Shown here in pieces: positions 2,878 through 9,869 of a stretch of DNA of 64,000 nt (the first letter of the stretch is position 1; the number at the start of each line of letters is the position of its first letter). The position numbers and the translations under genes are program-made. Origin of the DNA: Niastella koreensis GR20-10 (lineage in GTDB: Bacteria > Bacteroidota > Bacteroidia > Chitinophagales > Chitinophagaceae). The notes beneath the pieces are model-generated. The model made no database searches, had not been told where the DNA came from, and worked only from the letters and a program-made list of their open reading frames with translations. The stretch is from NCBI RefSeq assembly GCF_000246855.1, contig NC_016609.1, positions 7,762,744 through 7,826,743 on the forward strand. The letters are read 5' to 3'.

Positions 2878-2978
2878 TTCCCTGTGTCAACCATGTGTGA
2901 AACATGTGTGTTTCATTGGAGAAGTACCCTATTTGACACATGGTCGACACATGGTTGACACAACGTTCACACATGGTT
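2878..2978. repeat. Divergent array of 11-bp phased elements upstream of the helicase
   Basis: On the plus strand, four consecutive 11-bp units start at 2935, 2946, 2957 and 2968 (consensus SACACATGGTT). On the minus strand, two good units (2900-2910 and 2889-2899) and one degenerate unit (2878-2888) read the other way. A 24-bp spacer (2911-2934) separates the arms. Part of the structure is a perfect 15-nt inverted repeat, 2884-2898 against 2947-2961. Inference: a cluster of regulator binding sites. Confidence 0.7.
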
Positions 2979-3044
2979 TAGCCAACCTGAGCCCCGTAAA
3001 ACTTGCTTGGCATCATTTATAATTGCCCTTTCTGCCCCATTACT

Positions 3045-3052
3045 TATCTTGC
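3045..3052 (+). promoter_or_regulatory. Candidate -7 element of the helicase gene
   Basis: TATCTTGC lies 18 nt upstream of the ATG at 3071. It resembles the Bacteroidota -7 consensus TAnnTTTG with one T fewer. Its position makes the internal ATG at 3071, not the alternative start at 3023, the likely translation start. Confidence 0.45.
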
Positions 3053-3070
3053 CGCAAAGTGAGTGTGACC

Positions 3071-5317
3071 ATGGCTTTTTCTACCGATACATCCAATCAT
3101 TTATTTCAACTGGCTGTTCGGTTTGTGAATCAAACAAACCGCCACCTTTTCTTAACCGGAAAAGCAGGCACCGGCAAAACCACCTTTTTAAAATACATCC
3201 GGGAAAACACCTTTAAAAAACTGGCGGTAGTGGCGCCCACAGGCGTGGCCGCCATTAATGCCGGCGGAGTTACCATGCACTCCTTTTTTCAGCTGCCCCA
3301 TGGTTCGTTTTTACCCGCCCAGCCCAGTGGCTGGAATAGTAATAGTGCGTTCAACACCCCGCATACTTTGCTGGCAGGCTTGCGGCTTAACAACGATAAA
3401 AAGATCCTGCTGCAGGAACTGGAACTGCTGATCATCGACGAGGTAAGTATGCTGCGGGCCGATATCCTCGACGAAATTGATTGCATTCTCCGCCATGTTA
3501 GAAGAAAACAGTTCGAGCCCTTTGGGGGCGTGCAGATGCTGTATATCGGTGACCTGTTTCAATTGCCGCCGGTAGTGAAAAATGAAGAATGGGACCTGTT
3601 GAAACATCAATATAAAAGCCCCTTCTTTTTCGACGCCCAGGCCCTGCAACAAAAACCGCCATTGTACCTGGAGTTAAAAAAGATCTACCGCCAGCACGAA
3701 CAGGAGTTCATTGGTGTGCTCAATAATATCCGAAATAATAAGGTTACTGCTGCCGACCTTGATCTTTTGCACCAGCATTACCTGCCGGGGTATGAAAGTT
3801 CACATAACGAAAGCTATATCACGCTTACCACACATAATGCAAAGGCCGATACTATTAACCAGAATCAACTGGAAAAACTCGCCAGCCAATCCAGCGAGTA
3901 CAAGGCCGAGATCACGGGCGATTTTAATGAACGTGCCTACCCGGCCGACCAGGTTCTTCAATTAAAAGTAGGCGCCCAGATCATGTTCATCAAAAACGAT
4001 AAGGGTGAATCACGACGGTTCTTTAATGGCAAGATCGCCACCATTTCCCGCATCGGCGGCGGGGAGGTATATGTGCGATTTGAAGGGGATGAACACGATA
4101 TGCTGTTAGAAAAAGAAACCTGGCGGGCCATTCGTTACCAGTATAACAATGAAGATGATAAAATTGAAGAAGAAGAGATTGGTTCTTTTAAACAATACCC
4201 GGTACGGCTTGCCTGGGCCATCACCATTCATAAAAGCCAGGGGCTCACTTTTGAAAGAGCCATCATCGACGCCGGCGCATCCTTTGCTCCCGGACAGGTA
4301 TATGTAGCCCTTAGCCGGCTTACCTCGCTGGCTGGCCTGGTGCTTTATTCCCGCATTCACCCATCCAGCATAAACACCGATACAAGGGTTATTGAATTTA
4401 CCCGGCTGGAGCAGGAAGAAGATCAGCTGGCACAGGAATTACAGCAGGAACAACAGTTGTTTATTACCCGCTCCCTGGTGCAAACTTTCGACTGGCTAAA
4501 GCTGGGCGAAGGCGTTCAAATTCATTATGATGATTACGAAAAACGCACAATACCCGATAAAAACGCCTGTATCCTTTGGGGTCAGCACTTGTTGGATGCC
4601 GTTTTAAAACAGCAGGAGATGGCCGATAAGTTCACCCGGCAATTGGAACAACTGTTACCCAATGCCCAACAGGATGGCTACCAGTTTCTTCACCAACGGG
4701 TATCGGCCGGCAGCACCTGGTTTTTACAGGCTATGGATGAAATAGAAACATCCATTATCAATCATATAGCAGAAGTAAAACCCAAACCCAAGTCAAAAAA
4801 ATACGTTATCGCCTTACAGCAGTTACTGTTGCTGGCACAACGAAAAAAATTATTGCTTCAACAGGCTGTTCAAATTACTGATGGACTGGTAAAAGGCGCA
4901 AAGGCAACTGACCTGCTGCAACTGGTAGAAGACCAGAAAAGAGCCGACAACATAAAAACAGCTGAAGAAGCGGAAAAGAAAACATCCAAAGCACAAAAAG
5001 GAGATTCGAACCGGATAAGCCTGCAGTTGTTTAAGGAAGGTAAGGACATTGCCGAAATAGCGAACCTGCGACAACTGGCTCCCTCAACCATTGAAACTCA
5101 CCTGGCTTCTTTTATCAGAACGGGTGAACTGGATGTAAAGGAACTCGTTGCTGAAAATAAAATAACCGTTATTCTCCAAACCGTTGAAGAATTGAATTTG
5201 CAAACTGCCGCTACCACCCCGGTTAAAGAAAAACTGGGTGACACCTATTCATATGGCGAAATAAGAGCAGTTTTATATTACAGGGAATGGTTACAGGAAA
5301 GCAAAGCCGCTGGTTAA
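3071..5317 (+). CDS. Pif1/RecD-like superfamily 1B helicase with C-terminal HTH domain
   Basis: ATP-dependent DNA helicase, 748 aa from the ATG at 3071 (a longer frame starts at 3023 but lies upstream of the likely promoter). Visible motifs: Walker A GKAGTGKTT at residues 30-38, Walker B IIDEVSM at 121-127, motif III GDLFQLPP at about 160-167, and a late motif with HKSQGLTF. These match the Pif1-like helicases common in Bacteroidota. The C-terminal region (about 650-740) contains LAPSTIETHLASFIRTGEL, a helix-turn-helix of the type found at the C-terminus of RecQ-like helicases. A Lys/Glu-rich linker precedes it. The upstream region carries the 11-bp phased array. Inference: a role in replication-fork or recombination processing. 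Confidence 0.88.
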   Translation: MAFSTDTSNHLFQLAVRFVNQTNRHLFLTGKAGTGKTTFLKYIRENTFKKLAVVAPTGVAAINAGGVTMHSFFQLPHGSFLPAQPSGWNSNSAFNTPHTLLAGLRLNNDKKILLQELELLIIDEVSMLRADILDEIDCILRHVRRKQFEPFGGVQMLYIGDLFQLPPVVKNEEWDLLKHQYKSPFFFDAQALQQKPPLYLELKKIYRQHEQEFIGVLNNIRNNKVTAADLDLLHQHYLPGYESSHNESYITLTTHNAKADTINQNQLEKLASQSSEYKAEITGDFNERAYPADQVLQLKVGAQIMFIKNDKGESRRFFNGKIATISRIGGGEVYVRFEGDEHDMLLEKETWRAIRYQYNNEDDKIEEEEIGSFKQYPVRLAWAITIHKSQGLTFERAIIDAGASFAPGQVYVALSRLTSLAGLVLYSRIHPSSINTDTRVIEFTRLEQEEDQLAQELQQEQQLFITRSLVQTFDWLKLGEGVQIHYDDYEKRTIPDKNACILWGQHLLDAVLKQQEMADKFTRQLEQLLPNAQQDGYQFLHQRVSAGSTWFLQAMDEIETSIINHIAEVKPKPKSKKYVIALQQLLLLAQRKKLLLQQAVQITDGLVKGAKATDLLQLVEDQKRADNIKTAEEAEKKTSKAQKGDSNRISLQLFKEGKDIAEIANLRQLAPSTIETHLASFIRTGELDVKELVAENKITVILQTVEELNLQTAATTPVKEKLGDTYSYGEIRAVLYYREWLQESKAAG

Positions 5318-6603: not shown

Positions 6604-7455
6604 TTAATTTAATGATGGATCATTAAAGGTGTTACCCTGACTTACATCGCCGGTTTCAAATCCTTTTTTAAACCAGTACACACGTTGTGCTGAAGTACCG
6701 TGGGTAAATGATTCAGGAACTACCCGGCCCTGGGCTTCTTTCTGCAACCGGTCGTCGCCAATAGCATTGGCGGCATTCAGCGCCTCTTCGATGTCATTTG
6801 CGTCCAGGATGTTCTTCATTTTTTGGGCGTGATGGGCCCAAACACCGGCCAGGAAATCGGCCTGTAATTCCAGCTTTACGGAGTATTTATTGTATTCTTC
6901 TTCGCTCAATTGCCGACGCAGGCGGTCCATTTTATCACTGGTGCCATTCAGCTTTTGAATATGATGTCCTACTTCATGGGCAACCACATATGCCATGGCA
7001 AAATCGCCGGGGGCATGTAAATGCTCCTGCATTTCTTCAAAAAACGACAGGTCGATATAGAGCTTCTGGTCGCCTGGGCAATAAAAGGGCCCGGTGGCTG
7101 AGCCGGCCATACCGCAGGCGCTTTGCACAGATTCTCTAAAAAGTACCAGGGTGGGATCGGTATAGGTTTTACCCGCATCTGAAAACAGCTTACCCCATAC
7201 ATCTTCGGTATCGGCTAACACCACTTTTACAAAGCTGGCGCGTTCATCGTCCTTCTTTTGTTCTTCAGCGCTCATTTCTTTGGCAGGTCCGCCCTGTGGC
7301 AATACCTGGTTCAGGTCGGAGGTATCTCCACCCAGGAACACTTTCAATAAAATAACAATTACGCCAACAATGCCGCCGCCAACTGCGAGTCCACCGCCGG
7401 AAAATCCTCTGCGGTCTTCAACATTGGTGCTTTCGCGCCGTCCAGCCCATTTCAT
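6604..7455 (-). CDS. ypfJ: YpfJ-family neutral zinc metallopeptidase
   Basis: Membrane-anchored zinc peptidase-like protein, 283 aa. An N-terminal RRESTNVEDRRG stretch precedes one glycine-rich membrane segment (about residues 20-42). The zinc-binding HEVGHH motif is at 160-165, followed by LELQADFLAGVWAHHA with the third metal ligand region. The pair of motifs CGMAGSATGPFYCPGDQ and QADFxAG is characteristic of the YpfJ/KPN_02809 family. Its natural substrate is unknown. A perfect -7 element lies 16 nt upstream of the ATG. Confidence 0.9.
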   Translation of the reverse strand: MKWAGRRESTNVEDRRGFSGGGLAVGGGIVGVIVILLKVFLGGDTSDLNQVLPQGGPAKEMSAEEQKKDDERASFVKVVLADTEDVWGKLFSDAGKTYTDPTLVLFRESVQSACGMAGSATGPFYCPGDQKLYIDLSFFEEMQEHLHAPGDFAMAYVVAHEVGHHIQKLNGTSDKMDRLRRQLSEEEYNKYSVKLELQADFLAGVWAHHAQKMKNILDANDIEEALNAANAIGDDRLQKEAQGRVVPESFTHGTSAQRVYWFKKGFETGDVSQGNTFNDPSLN

Positions 7456-7471
7456 GTTAAATGATTTATTA

Positions 7472-7479
7472 CAAAAATA
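7472..7479 (-). promoter_or_regulatory. -7 promoter element of ypfJ
   Basis: Read on the minus strand this is TATTTTTG, a perfect TAnnTTTG match, 16 nt upstream of the ypfJ start codon. Confidence 0.55.
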
Positions 7480-7502
7480 GGTAGAATAATGTGATGGGAA
7501 GA

Positions 7503-9869
7503 TTACCTCAGATGTTTGAGCAGAACCCGGAATAATTCATCGGGATTGAATGGTTTCACTACTATATCGGTAAGGCCTGCGCTTTGCACATCTTTTTCCA
7601 CCTCGGCCGGCAGGCTGGCGGTGAGTGCAATCACTGGCAATGTAATGCCACGGGCACGCAAGTGGCGGGTAGCTTCAAACCCATCCATAACAGGCATATT
7701 CAGATCCATTAAAACCAGATCGTATTTTCCCGGTTGAATTTTTTCAAGTGCTTCTTCCCCATTGGTTGCTACTTCTACTATAGCCCCGCTGCGTTCAAGC
7801 AACGATTGTGCCACCATAATATTAAAGGGATTGTCTTCCACTACCAAAATGTGTTCACCCTGCAATTGTTTATCTGAAATGTGGTCTTTTTTGTACTGCC
7901 CTTCGGTATTTACCGGTTCATTACTAAGGTCAAAATTCTGGGAGAAATAAAACGCCGATCCTTTTCCCGGTTCACTTCGTAAATTCAACACCACGCCCTG
8001 CAGTTCCAGTATTCGCTTTGTGATAGCGAGGCCCAGCCCGGTTCCACCATAACTACGCGAAGTAGAGGAGTCGGCCTGCGTAAAACGATCGAAGATCAAT
8101 TGCTGTTTGTCAGGTTCAATTCCAATACCCGTATCGGTCACTTTTATAGTTAGGGTTATTTTATCGCCGGTGATCTTCTCTGCCTGTATCGATAATTGTA
8201 CCGATCCCTGTTCGGTGAACTTGATGGCATTATGCACCAGGTTATAAATTACCTGTGAAGTGCGGGTAGGATCGCCGATTACTTTATGGGTAATGCGGCT
8301 GTCGATGATGGTATCTAATGTAATGTTTTTTTCAACGGCTTTGCTGCTTAACCCACCAGTGATATGCTGAGCGATGGAGGTAATGTCCATCGGCACCATT
8401 TCAAAATTGATTTTTCCGGCCTCGATCTTGTTATAATCCAGGATGTCGTTAACGATAGAAAGCAGGTTATTGGCCGAGAACAGCAATACATTCAGGTTCT
8501 TTTCCTGGTCGCGGCGCGGAGTGCTCCGCAGCATCAGGTGCGCCATACCTATAACCACGTTTAACGGGGTACGTATTTCATGCGACATGGTAGAAAGAAA
8601 CTCTGTTTTGGTTTTTAACCCCTGTTGAGCTTCATCGGCGGCTTTGCGCAGGGTATAGGCAAACCGGTGCGATAACACCAGTGATTGTAAAAAGAAGAAG
8701 AGTACATAACCTATGAAAACGATCCACTTTTCTGTTCCTATTACCTGGAAGTAATTCAGGTTGATGATTAAAAACACCAGCAGCATAACCCCGCAACTCA
8801 TTAGAGCGAATGCAGCCCCCACCCGTTTGAATTTAACCGCCCTTACACAAATGAATAAGGCAAAGGCGATATAGAAGAACATCACGCCCAGAAACGGCAT
8901 TATTCCCTGGGTAAATATCCGGGGTGGCGTTGCCAGGATCACCAGGCTATAAAGCAGGCAGATGTAAACAACCGCATTCACGATAAACCGGTTGGCATCT
9001 TTAGGATACACGCTTTGAAAATATCGGGAGAACAGAGCAACGCCCAGGGTAAGACTTAAATATTCCAACCGGATAGTTAAAAACCAGCTGAGGTTGGGAA
9101 ATACGGCATGTAATACATACTGGCTGGTACCTACCATGCGGTAACTGTAAACGATACAGAACAACGAGAAATAAAGGATGGCTTTATCACGGCTGCCAAA
9201 GGCATAAAAACCAAAAAAGAACAACCCACCCATAAACAAACAGCCTGCCAGCAGGATATCATAAGCCCTATCGCGTTGAAGGTTTAAAGTGAGCTTGTTG
9301 TTTTCGCCGATATATAACGTTTTGTAAGTACCACCCTTGGTATGCCAGAAGTTGGCTACCTGTAACAACAAATGCAGGGTATCAGTATTGTCGGGCAGGT
9401 TAACGGCTTTTGTGCACCAGAAAGGAACAGCTGTTTCACGGGAGGTATCAGGCTTCCCATTAGCGGACAGTAAAGAATCATTTATAAATAACCGGTACGA
9501 ACAGTATACATCGGTCATCAACATGGCCAGGTGCGGCCGCCTTTTGGGAAGCAGCACCGTAAGCGAATAGGTAGCATATCCTTCAACAGGCAAATAATGT
9601 CCGCGTAGTTTTATCTTGTTCCAAAGAGAAGGGTAGTTAACATAGTCCGGCGAAGCGGAAGCAGTATCGCCTGGTTGCAATAACCGGAGCCAGTAAAATT
9701 GCCATTCACCAATTAAAGGAGCTGAATATTCCTGCAGGTTTGCTGATCGAAGATCTAAAACACCCTGATGAGCTGTTACAGCGGTCAATGGTCCATCCTT
9801 TGCCAGGCAGGCAGGCAAACAGCCCCCTATAAAAAGGGCAACAAGAATGATCCATAGTGCGTGTTTCAT
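7503..9869 (-). CDS. Hybrid sensor histidine kinase with 7TMR-DISM sensor
   Basis: Membrane signalling kinase, 788 aa. Order of parts: signal peptide, periplasmic 7TMR-DISM extracellular-2-type domain (about 30-200), seven membrane helices (about 205-405), HisKA domain with FLSTMSHEIRTPLN carrying the phospho-accepting His, HATPase with N-box NLVHNAIKFTEQG and G-box DTGIGI, and a C-terminal receiver domain with phospho-acceptor Asp in VLMDLNMP and conserved Lys in VVKPF. There is no DNA-binding output domain, so the signal must pass to a partner by phosphorelay; no partner is adjacent. The DISM ectodomain suggests sensing of a carbohydrate-like ligand (family inference). Confidence 0.9.
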   Translation of the reverse strand: MKHALWIILVALFIGGCLPACLAKDGPLTAVTAHQGVLDLRSANLQEYSAPLIGEWQFYWLRLLQPGDTASASPDYVNYPSLWNKIKLRGHYLPVEGYATYSLTVLLPKRRPHLAMLMTDVYCSYRLFINDSLLSANGKPDTSRETAVPFWCTKAVNLPDNTDTLHLLLQVANFWHTKGGTYKTLYIGENNKLTLNLQRDRAYDILLAGCLFMGGLFFFGFYAFGSRDKAILYFSLFCIVYSYRMVGTSQYVLHAVFPNLSWFLTIRLEYLSLTLGVALFSRYFQSVYPKDANRFIVNAVVYICLLYSLVILATPPRIFTQGIMPFLGVMFFYIAFALFICVRAVKFKRVGAAFALMSCGVMLLVFLIINLNYFQVIGTEKWIVFIGYVLFFFLQSLVLSHRFAYTLRKAADEAQQGLKTKTEFLSTMSHEIRTPLNVVIGMAHLMLRSTPRRDQEKNLNVLLFSANNLLSIVNDILDYNKIEAGKINFEMVPMDITSIAQHITGGLSSKAVEKNITLDTIIDSRITHKVIGDPTRTSQVIYNLVHNAIKFTEQGSVQLSIQAEKITGDKITLTIKVTDTGIGIEPDKQQLIFDRFTQADSSTSRSYGGTGLGLAITKRILELQGVVLNLRSEPGKGSAFYFSQNFDLSNEPVNTEGQYKKDHISDKQLQGEHILVVEDNPFNIMVAQSLLERSGAIVEVATNGEEALEKIQPGKYDLVLMDLNMPVMDGFEATRHLRARGITLPVIALTASLPAEVEKDVQSAGLTDIVVKPFNPDELFRVLLKHLR

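Follow-up and report, generated by a model that had tools for sequence, protein, structure and literature searches.

A two-armed array of 11-bp units in Niastella koreensis is one of several dispersed copies of a module of about 100 bases, probably a docking array for a regulator

The window, a 64-kb stretch of the Niastella koreensis GR20-10 genome, contains a two-armed array of 11-bp units upstream of a gene for a Pif1-like helicase. The right arm (2935–2978, plus strand) consists of four units, GACACATGGTC, GACACATGGTT, GACACAACGTT and CACACATGGTT, starting at positions 2935, 2946, 2957 and 2968, respectively. The left arm (2878–2910) holds three units on the minus strand: CACACATGTTT at 2900–2910, CACACATGGTT at 2889–2899, and the degenerate outermost unit GACACAGGGAA at 2878–2888. 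Between the arms lies an asymmetric centre of 24 bp, TTTCATTGGAGAAGTACCCTATTT (2911–2934, plus strand). The entire module, model positions 1–101, occupies 2878–2978 on the plus strand. The helicase gene (PF05970, with a C-terminal HTH_40 domain; 3071–5317, plus strand) and its probable promoter region CATTACTTATCTTGCC (3038–3053, plus strand; read by eye) are neighbours outside the module.

The unit coordinates, obtained by direct reading of the sequence and by a unit scan, agree to the base with the original prediction, as do the two opposed arms and the length of the centre. The same prediction held that exact 11-bp steps are unlikely by chance, and the scan bears this out. With up to two mismatches to ACACATGGTT, the window contains a run of four units at exact 11-bp steps on the plus strand and a run of two on the minus strand; of 60 dinucleotide-shuffled versions of the window, 59 have no run longer than one unit and one has a run of two. 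In the whole genome, the two-unit pattern with at most three mismatches has 10 forward and 12 reverse matches, and the backwards pattern used as a control has 0 and 0. No Rfam family reaches its gathering threshold within the window. A blastn search with the 101-bp window copy gave no plasmid, phage or viral-contig match, nor did a search with the exact two-unit pattern, and the titles and abstract openings of the open-access literature consulted contain no description of such an element.

The window array is one of several dispersed copies of a module of about 100 bases found in Niastella and its relatives. The genome of the window (G000, a single contig of 9,033,684 bases) has five arrays, at 1.18, 7.77 (the window), 8.23, 8.48 and 8.70 Mb. 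A 101-column model was built from these five and searched in 13 chosen genomes. The module model R1 matches the window copy at 7765622–7765720 with an E-value of 2.2e-28, which is strong by construction because the window copy is a member of the model. Full arrays were found in G009 (10), G007 (nine plus a half), G004 (three), G006 (three, in a genome that is 61% complete), G082 (five) and G093 (three, one of them diverged); each of four other Niastella genomes has 3–10 full copies of the ~101-bp module, which is also present in other Chitinophagaceae. By the same model, G008 has weak, diverged arrays, G005 has one degraded array, and G001–G003 have none. The genome G093 additionally contains one half array and one array split by an rve-domain transposase gene; at the locus L138 of this genome (about 7380–8880) an element with such a gene separates the two array halves. 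The search of the genome and its relatives for units spaced 11 bp, which the original prediction had proposed, thus recovers arrays at other places in both.

A family-wide search of 147 genomes (two of them from the genus) with stricter filters gave matches at an E-value of 0.01 or better in six genomes. The matches in G015, G031 and G039 are weak (best E-values 0.00075 to 0.0066), and those in G015 and G039 are one-way rows of a different 11-bp unit. These rows, located in L063/L069 of G039 and in L064 and L070 of G015, both from other Chitinophagaceae, are built of a related unit, A(A/T)CCATGCTTT or AAACATGCTTT. An exact two-unit search of named genomes found 14 stretches, in Niastella yeongjuensis, N. 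populi, a Niastella MAG and a Chitinophagaceae MAG, as well as in Flavihumibacter profundi, F. solisilvae and Pedobacter panaciterrae. The Flavihumibacter and Pedobacter arrays have near-identical units in opposed arms, and their centres differ from that of the Niastella module. A SACACATGGTT array in L143 of G082 has, at a distance of about 280 bp, a second two-armed array (about 7680–7870) with a different 11-bp unit, of the GACTGATGGAT type; both have a TTTCCCGTTTAAAC centre, that is, the same design with a different unit.

Thirty-one arrays align without gaps over 101 columns with a mean column identity of 83%. This set stands apart from L126 (an insertion in the model match), the diverged L139, the half or interrupted arrays L129, L138 and L140, the G082 arrays, the diverged G008 arrays and the degraded G005 array. 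The consensus of the left arm, from the outer to the inner unit, is AWCCATGTGTS, AACCATGTGTS and AAACATGTGTG; the 24-nt centre reads TnCATTrGnrAA and ends with TTT; the right arm is GACACATGGWT, CACACAWGGWT, GAGGCCAGGTT or GACACAAGGTT, and CACACATGGTT. Column information falls to background about 4 bp past the right arm. Given a gap-free alignment of 31 copies with an asymmetric consensus that fades past the right end, the module is oriented. The position-specific variants that the copies share make it probable that they derive from each other and did not originate separately.

The module has the same orientation at four orthologous places: the site at 8.23 Mb in G000, shared with G009; the LytTR site described below, in G000, G006, G007 and G009 (diverged in G008); the rpsJ site in G006 and G009; and one site in G007 and G004. 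For nine like-oriented orthologous pairs compared without gaps, a set that leaves out the L128/L135 pair, identity is 88.6% in the arms, 60.2% in the centres and 46% in flanks of 30 bp on each side. Unrelated copies from different genomes (365 pairs) have arms that are 78% and centres that are 62% identical, and copies inside one genome 83% and 71%. Non-orthologous centres thus resemble each other more closely when they come from one genome (0.711) than when they come from different genomes (0.621); none of 5000 label permutations reached the overall difference in centres between same-genome and other-genome pairs. From these values, the arms are kept in place, whereas the centres drift and come to resemble other centres of the same genome. 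In L128 (G007) and L135 (G006) the module lies in the same gap between the same genes in opposite orientations, so descent in place is not universal, and separate insertion or inversion is favoured there. Further places have gained or lost their copy; the helicase site, for instance, is occupied in 1 of 11 genomes.

Many copies carry a promoter beyond the left arm. Seven of the nine full copies of G007 were aligned. Their shared sequence, up to ~300 bp long, stops sharply at the right arm and is surrounded by unrelated DNA; in L120, most of the outermost block is absent. In the direction leading away from the array, the additional part contains a ladder of CGTCCC sites, TCCCATTTTTC and TAnnTTTG. 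TAnnTTTG is the −7 consensus of Bacteroidota. Within 320 bp beyond the left arm, it is directed outward in 18 of 32 arrays (the 31 aligned arrays and L126) versus inward in 2 of 32, about 3.2 being expected from base shuffling; beyond the right arm the counts are 7 outward and 4 inward, with 3.9 expected. The outward box of L137 is the promoter of a tRNA-His gene, which leaves cassettes in 17 of the 32 arrays. In a sample of 1,527,452 bases (with small overlaps between loci, and G003 left out) the motif [TC]CCATTT[TC]-N20-24-TAnnTTTG has 16 matches, all within 400 bp of an array, and none elsewhere; since the motif was derived from these copies, only its absence away from arrays counts as independent. 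It fits 15 of the 17 cassettes (L137 is not among the 17), the exceptions being L012 and L118, and one more promoter located 332 bp from L123. CGTCCC-like sites, with six spellings allowed, were found at −57 from the −7 box in 15 of the 17 cassettes and at −58 in L012; L110 has none there. They recur in 22-bp steps at −35, −79, −120, −142 and −164, not all of them in each copy.

In the remaining 15 of the 32 copies, that of the window among them, no cassette promoter lies within 320 bp (the number falls to 14 if the promoter at 332 bp from L123 is counted), and the 400 bp beyond the left arm of the window copy contain no CGTCCC site. By raw counts, the gaps that hold the 32 arrays are divergent in 10 cases, codirectional in 11 and convergent in 9, with two at contig edges; promoter-bearing gaps are not in excess. 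The nearest open reading frame of at least 100 aa faced by the outward promoter is in the sense orientation in 8 of the 17 cassettes, including a histidine kinase gene (L110) and a cytochrome c gene (L115), and antisense in the other 9. The mixture of orientations and the lack of an excess of promoter-bearing gaps are as compatible with mobile DNA as with regulation. Six of the seven aligned G007 copies (e.g. L126, about 8230–8290) have in common the ~35 nt immediately downstream of the outward −7 box. This stretch comprises, with small changes, a TTCGTACGAA palindrome followed by GTTCTTTGACAT, and it resembles the boxA-like signal of rRNA leaders.

In the best conserved copy, the array is located between a gene for a 127-aa stand-alone LytTR protein (PF04397) and a promoter cassette, and this cassette precedes a strongly conserved block of ~90 nt. 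Past the block, five of six genomes (the exception is G003) have a gene for a MAK(I/V)xxNxLVRG... protein ('MAKIKDNLLVRG'), whose scanned members match no Pfam or NCBIfam family. The trio of the array, the LytTR gene and the 'MAKIKDNLLVRG' gene is kept in G000, G006, G007 and G009, and in G008 with diverged units. The block, with the core CGCTTAATGCCAAACGAGAGGAGCGACTTGAATGGCAT, occurs seven times in the 2.48 Mb examined: at the LytTR site of six genomes, with one further copy at 8.48 Mb in the window's genome, again behind an array. Each occurrence lies just past a TAnnTTTG box (L012, about 7527–7623, plus strand; L011, about 7030–7120, minus strand; L133, L116, L121, L146 and L154). No Rfam family matches the block in L012, L011 or L133 up to an E-value of 1. 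Its predicted fold is slightly better than that of shuffled sequences (z −1.74 in L012, −1.46 in L011 and −1.03 in L121), and an alignment fold of five pieces, two of them short, shows no compensatory change. The block might be drawn as a stem-loop, a reading to which the folding energies lend weak support.

The array was first suggested to be a PhoB-type operator of the Pif1-like helicase gene. Its 11-bp direct repeats do have the geometry of the pho box, for which 11-bp direct repeat units are described in the available part of PMC2605767, and it stops about 90 bp upstream of the probable start codon (3071). However, only one of the 11 Pif1 orthologues examined, that of the window, is preceded by an array; a special tie to the helicase is thus not supported, and a helicase-specific operator was rejected. 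The CATTACTTATCTTGCC region is kept, with small changes in some cases, before the Pif1 genes of nine genus relatives that all lack the array there (by eye, it was not seen before the Pif1 gene of G093). A dependence of the −7 element on the array was not confirmed either, and we consider such an operator highly improbable. What stands of the first suggestion is the class of explanation, a helically phased array of protein-binding sites. The test of conservation in close relatives, on which the suggestion had been staked, divides in the same way: arrays are conserved at several other sites and not at the helicase site. The window array is probably a docking array for a regulator and not a switch for the adjacent gene. 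An overlapping coding sequence as the cause of conservation was rejected, as the neighbours of arrays show no recurring gene family except the LytTR trio; the short open reading frames (70–110 aa) that overlap some arrays differ from copy to copy. A functional RNA hairpin or DNA cruciform formed by the two arms, which had been another proposal, is no more plausible than the helicase operator. Single copies do fold better than shuffled sequences (z −2.8 to −4.9 for five array sequences, including both strands of the window copy), but the arms pair well because both hold the same unit: among the 31 arrays the left arm matches its own right arm at 25.32 of 33 positions and the right arms of other copies at 25.46 (p 0.86), the covariation score is 0.058 versus 0.061 in shuffles, and the innermost unit pair is mismatched in most copies (columns 33–58 unpaired in 25 of 31, and 25–66 in 23). 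Without covariation of the arms a selected hairpin is unlikely, and this form was rejected. A centromere-like or origin-linked site was likewise rejected and seems very doubtful to us, since the clustering of the five G000 copies (Rayleigh p 0.019), four of them within ~0.9 Mb of the sampled GC-skew switch at 7.83–7.89 Mb, is weak and limited to this genome; the five places in the single-contig G093 genome are unclustered (p 0.48), and one G009 copy sits at rpsJ, a gene whose G000 orthologue is at 5.8 Mb. The sampled skew of G093 has no clear switch, so no origin was placed there. In G000, the sampled skew flips just to the right of the window and again near 3.4 Mb, and dnaA begins at base 555; by these positions the replication origin may lie ~1.2 Mb from dnaA.

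A selfish, MITE-like non-autonomous element, whose units would bind a transposase or recombinase supplied in trans and whose effect on promoters would be incidental, is an unlikely but more serious alternative. The abrupt ends of the ~300-bp G007 copies within unrelated flanks are of the kind expected from it; on the other hand, neither the ends of the G007 unit nor the four sites compared (L113, rpsJ, L120 and L126) revealed terminal inverted repeats, target-site duplications or a clean empty site. This comparison has low power: no clean footprint was seen because the surrounding intergenic DNA differs, and at L120 and L126 the neighbouring gene is in place in only three and two relatives, respectively. 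The occupancy of sites in the stretches compared from 10 genomes points to mobility, since G009 alone has a copy at the L113 site and just two genomes, G006 and G009, have one at rpsJ. The greater similarity of centres within a genome points the same way; yet a genome has only 3–10 full copies. Orientation can be read both ways, being opposite in the L128/L135 gap but the same at the four orthologous places. Y1 (REP-type) transposases (PF01797) have one to three matches in each of 12 genomes, with or without arrays, and so do not track them; a REP/RAYT system was rejected on this ground.

The reading that we prefer, with a probability of roughly 55%, is that a promoter cassette has dispersed and the array is its distal operator, the window copy being a solo array. 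Under this proposal, a sequence-specific protein would assemble cooperatively on the two opposed rows of 11-bp sites, spaced at about one per turn of DNA, and the assembly would lie on one face of the helix, extending outward from the conserved 24-bp centre. The full form would continue beyond the left arm with CGTCCC-like sites at about −164, −142, −120, −79, −57 and −35 from the −7 box, followed by a T-rich TCCATTTTYC-like block and a TAnnTTTG box firing away from the array. The window copy consists solely of the array, which may still bind the protein. Protein binding, cooperativity, the activity of the promoter and its control by the array are what we infer from the sequences.

The leading candidate for the array binder is the LytTR protein encoded beside the best conserved cassette. 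As a special case of the distal-operator reading, the array could be the operator of this protein, which would autoregulate its own gene and control the other copies. The conserved trio argues for this tentative proposal, as does the 22-bp site spacing, which agrees with the LytTR sites described in the available part of PMC4847170. Cassette promoters were found in 17 of 27 copies in the four array-bearing genomes with a LytTR orthologue versus none of five copies in G004 and G093, a comparison that does not count the G008 and G082 copies. Among the five LytTR proteins aligned, that of G008 has diverged most (44% to that of the window's genome; G003 was not in the alignment), and the three proximal sites of G008, in 22-bp steps, are all CACCAC; the other genomes mostly have CGTCCC at −79 and −57, whereas their site at −35 is looser and of the CCC/TCC type. 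Neither CGTCCC nor CACCAC sites were found farther out in G008, and in the 2.41 Mb examined the CACCAC trio was seen only at this site (in two overlapping loci of it). A specificity shift of one binding protein would produce such a concerted difference across the three sites. However, a LytTR orthologue is absent from three array-bearing genomes, G004, G093 and G082, meaning that either another protein binds their arrays or these are relics, and G003 has the orthologue with a decayed array at the LytTR site, although its promoter sites remain. On balance, we regard control by this LytTR protein as possible but less probable than not. We further speculate, with still less confidence, that one fast-evolving LytTR-type regulator reads both the 22-bp ladder and the two-armed 11-bp ladder of dispersing cassettes, that its sites change along with it, and that the founding copy drives an undescribed small RNA.

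If the distal-operator reading is right, the cassettes would offer a simple natural system for studying promoter control by cooperative assembly on phased sites, and the joint change of a regulator and its dispersed sites, in a phylum for which little regulatory DNA has been mapped. The analysis further suggests a conserved RNA that may be structured and matches no Rfam family, and corrects the idea of the array as a feature of the helicase gene. With PHO boxes and other OmpR/PhoB sites, the module shares tandem 11-bp direct repeat units, but it differs from them in having two opposed arms around a conserved asymmetric centre. Its unit sequence is presumably unrelated to the pho box, and no phosphate or pho-regulon genes were noticed among the neighbours of the arrays. 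The parC centromere of the ParMRC system of plasmid R1 has 11-bp ParR repeats; there, too, two blocks of 11-bp repeats flank a middle segment, whereas the module described here is chromosomal and multi-copy, with opposed arms and a promoter outside them.

MITEs are short, non-coding, multi-copy elements of 70–300 bp according to the available part of PMC3733652, and the module, with a 101-bp core and a ~300-bp form in G007, is similarly short, non-coding and multi-copy. Like MITEs and the REP, REPIN and BIME elements it is intergenic and partly mobile-looking, but it differs from them in its few copies, in the lack of detected terminal inverted repeats and target duplications, in its internal phased arrays and recurring promoter architecture, and in having no association with Y1 transposases. 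A further likeness is to the binding sites of LytTR regulators such as YpdB, AgrA and VirR, which are direct repeats in ~22-bp steps upstream of a promoter, and a LytTR gene lies beside the best cassette. In the part of PMC4847170 available to us, LytTR sites are described as repeats of 9–11 nt located 11–13 nt apart, a spacing that the CGTCCC-like sites from −35 to −164 show as well. The known sites consist of one pair of repeats in that part of the source, whereas the cassettes described here have up to six sites in 22-bp phase, together with two opposed rows of 11-bp units, and are present in many scattered copies.
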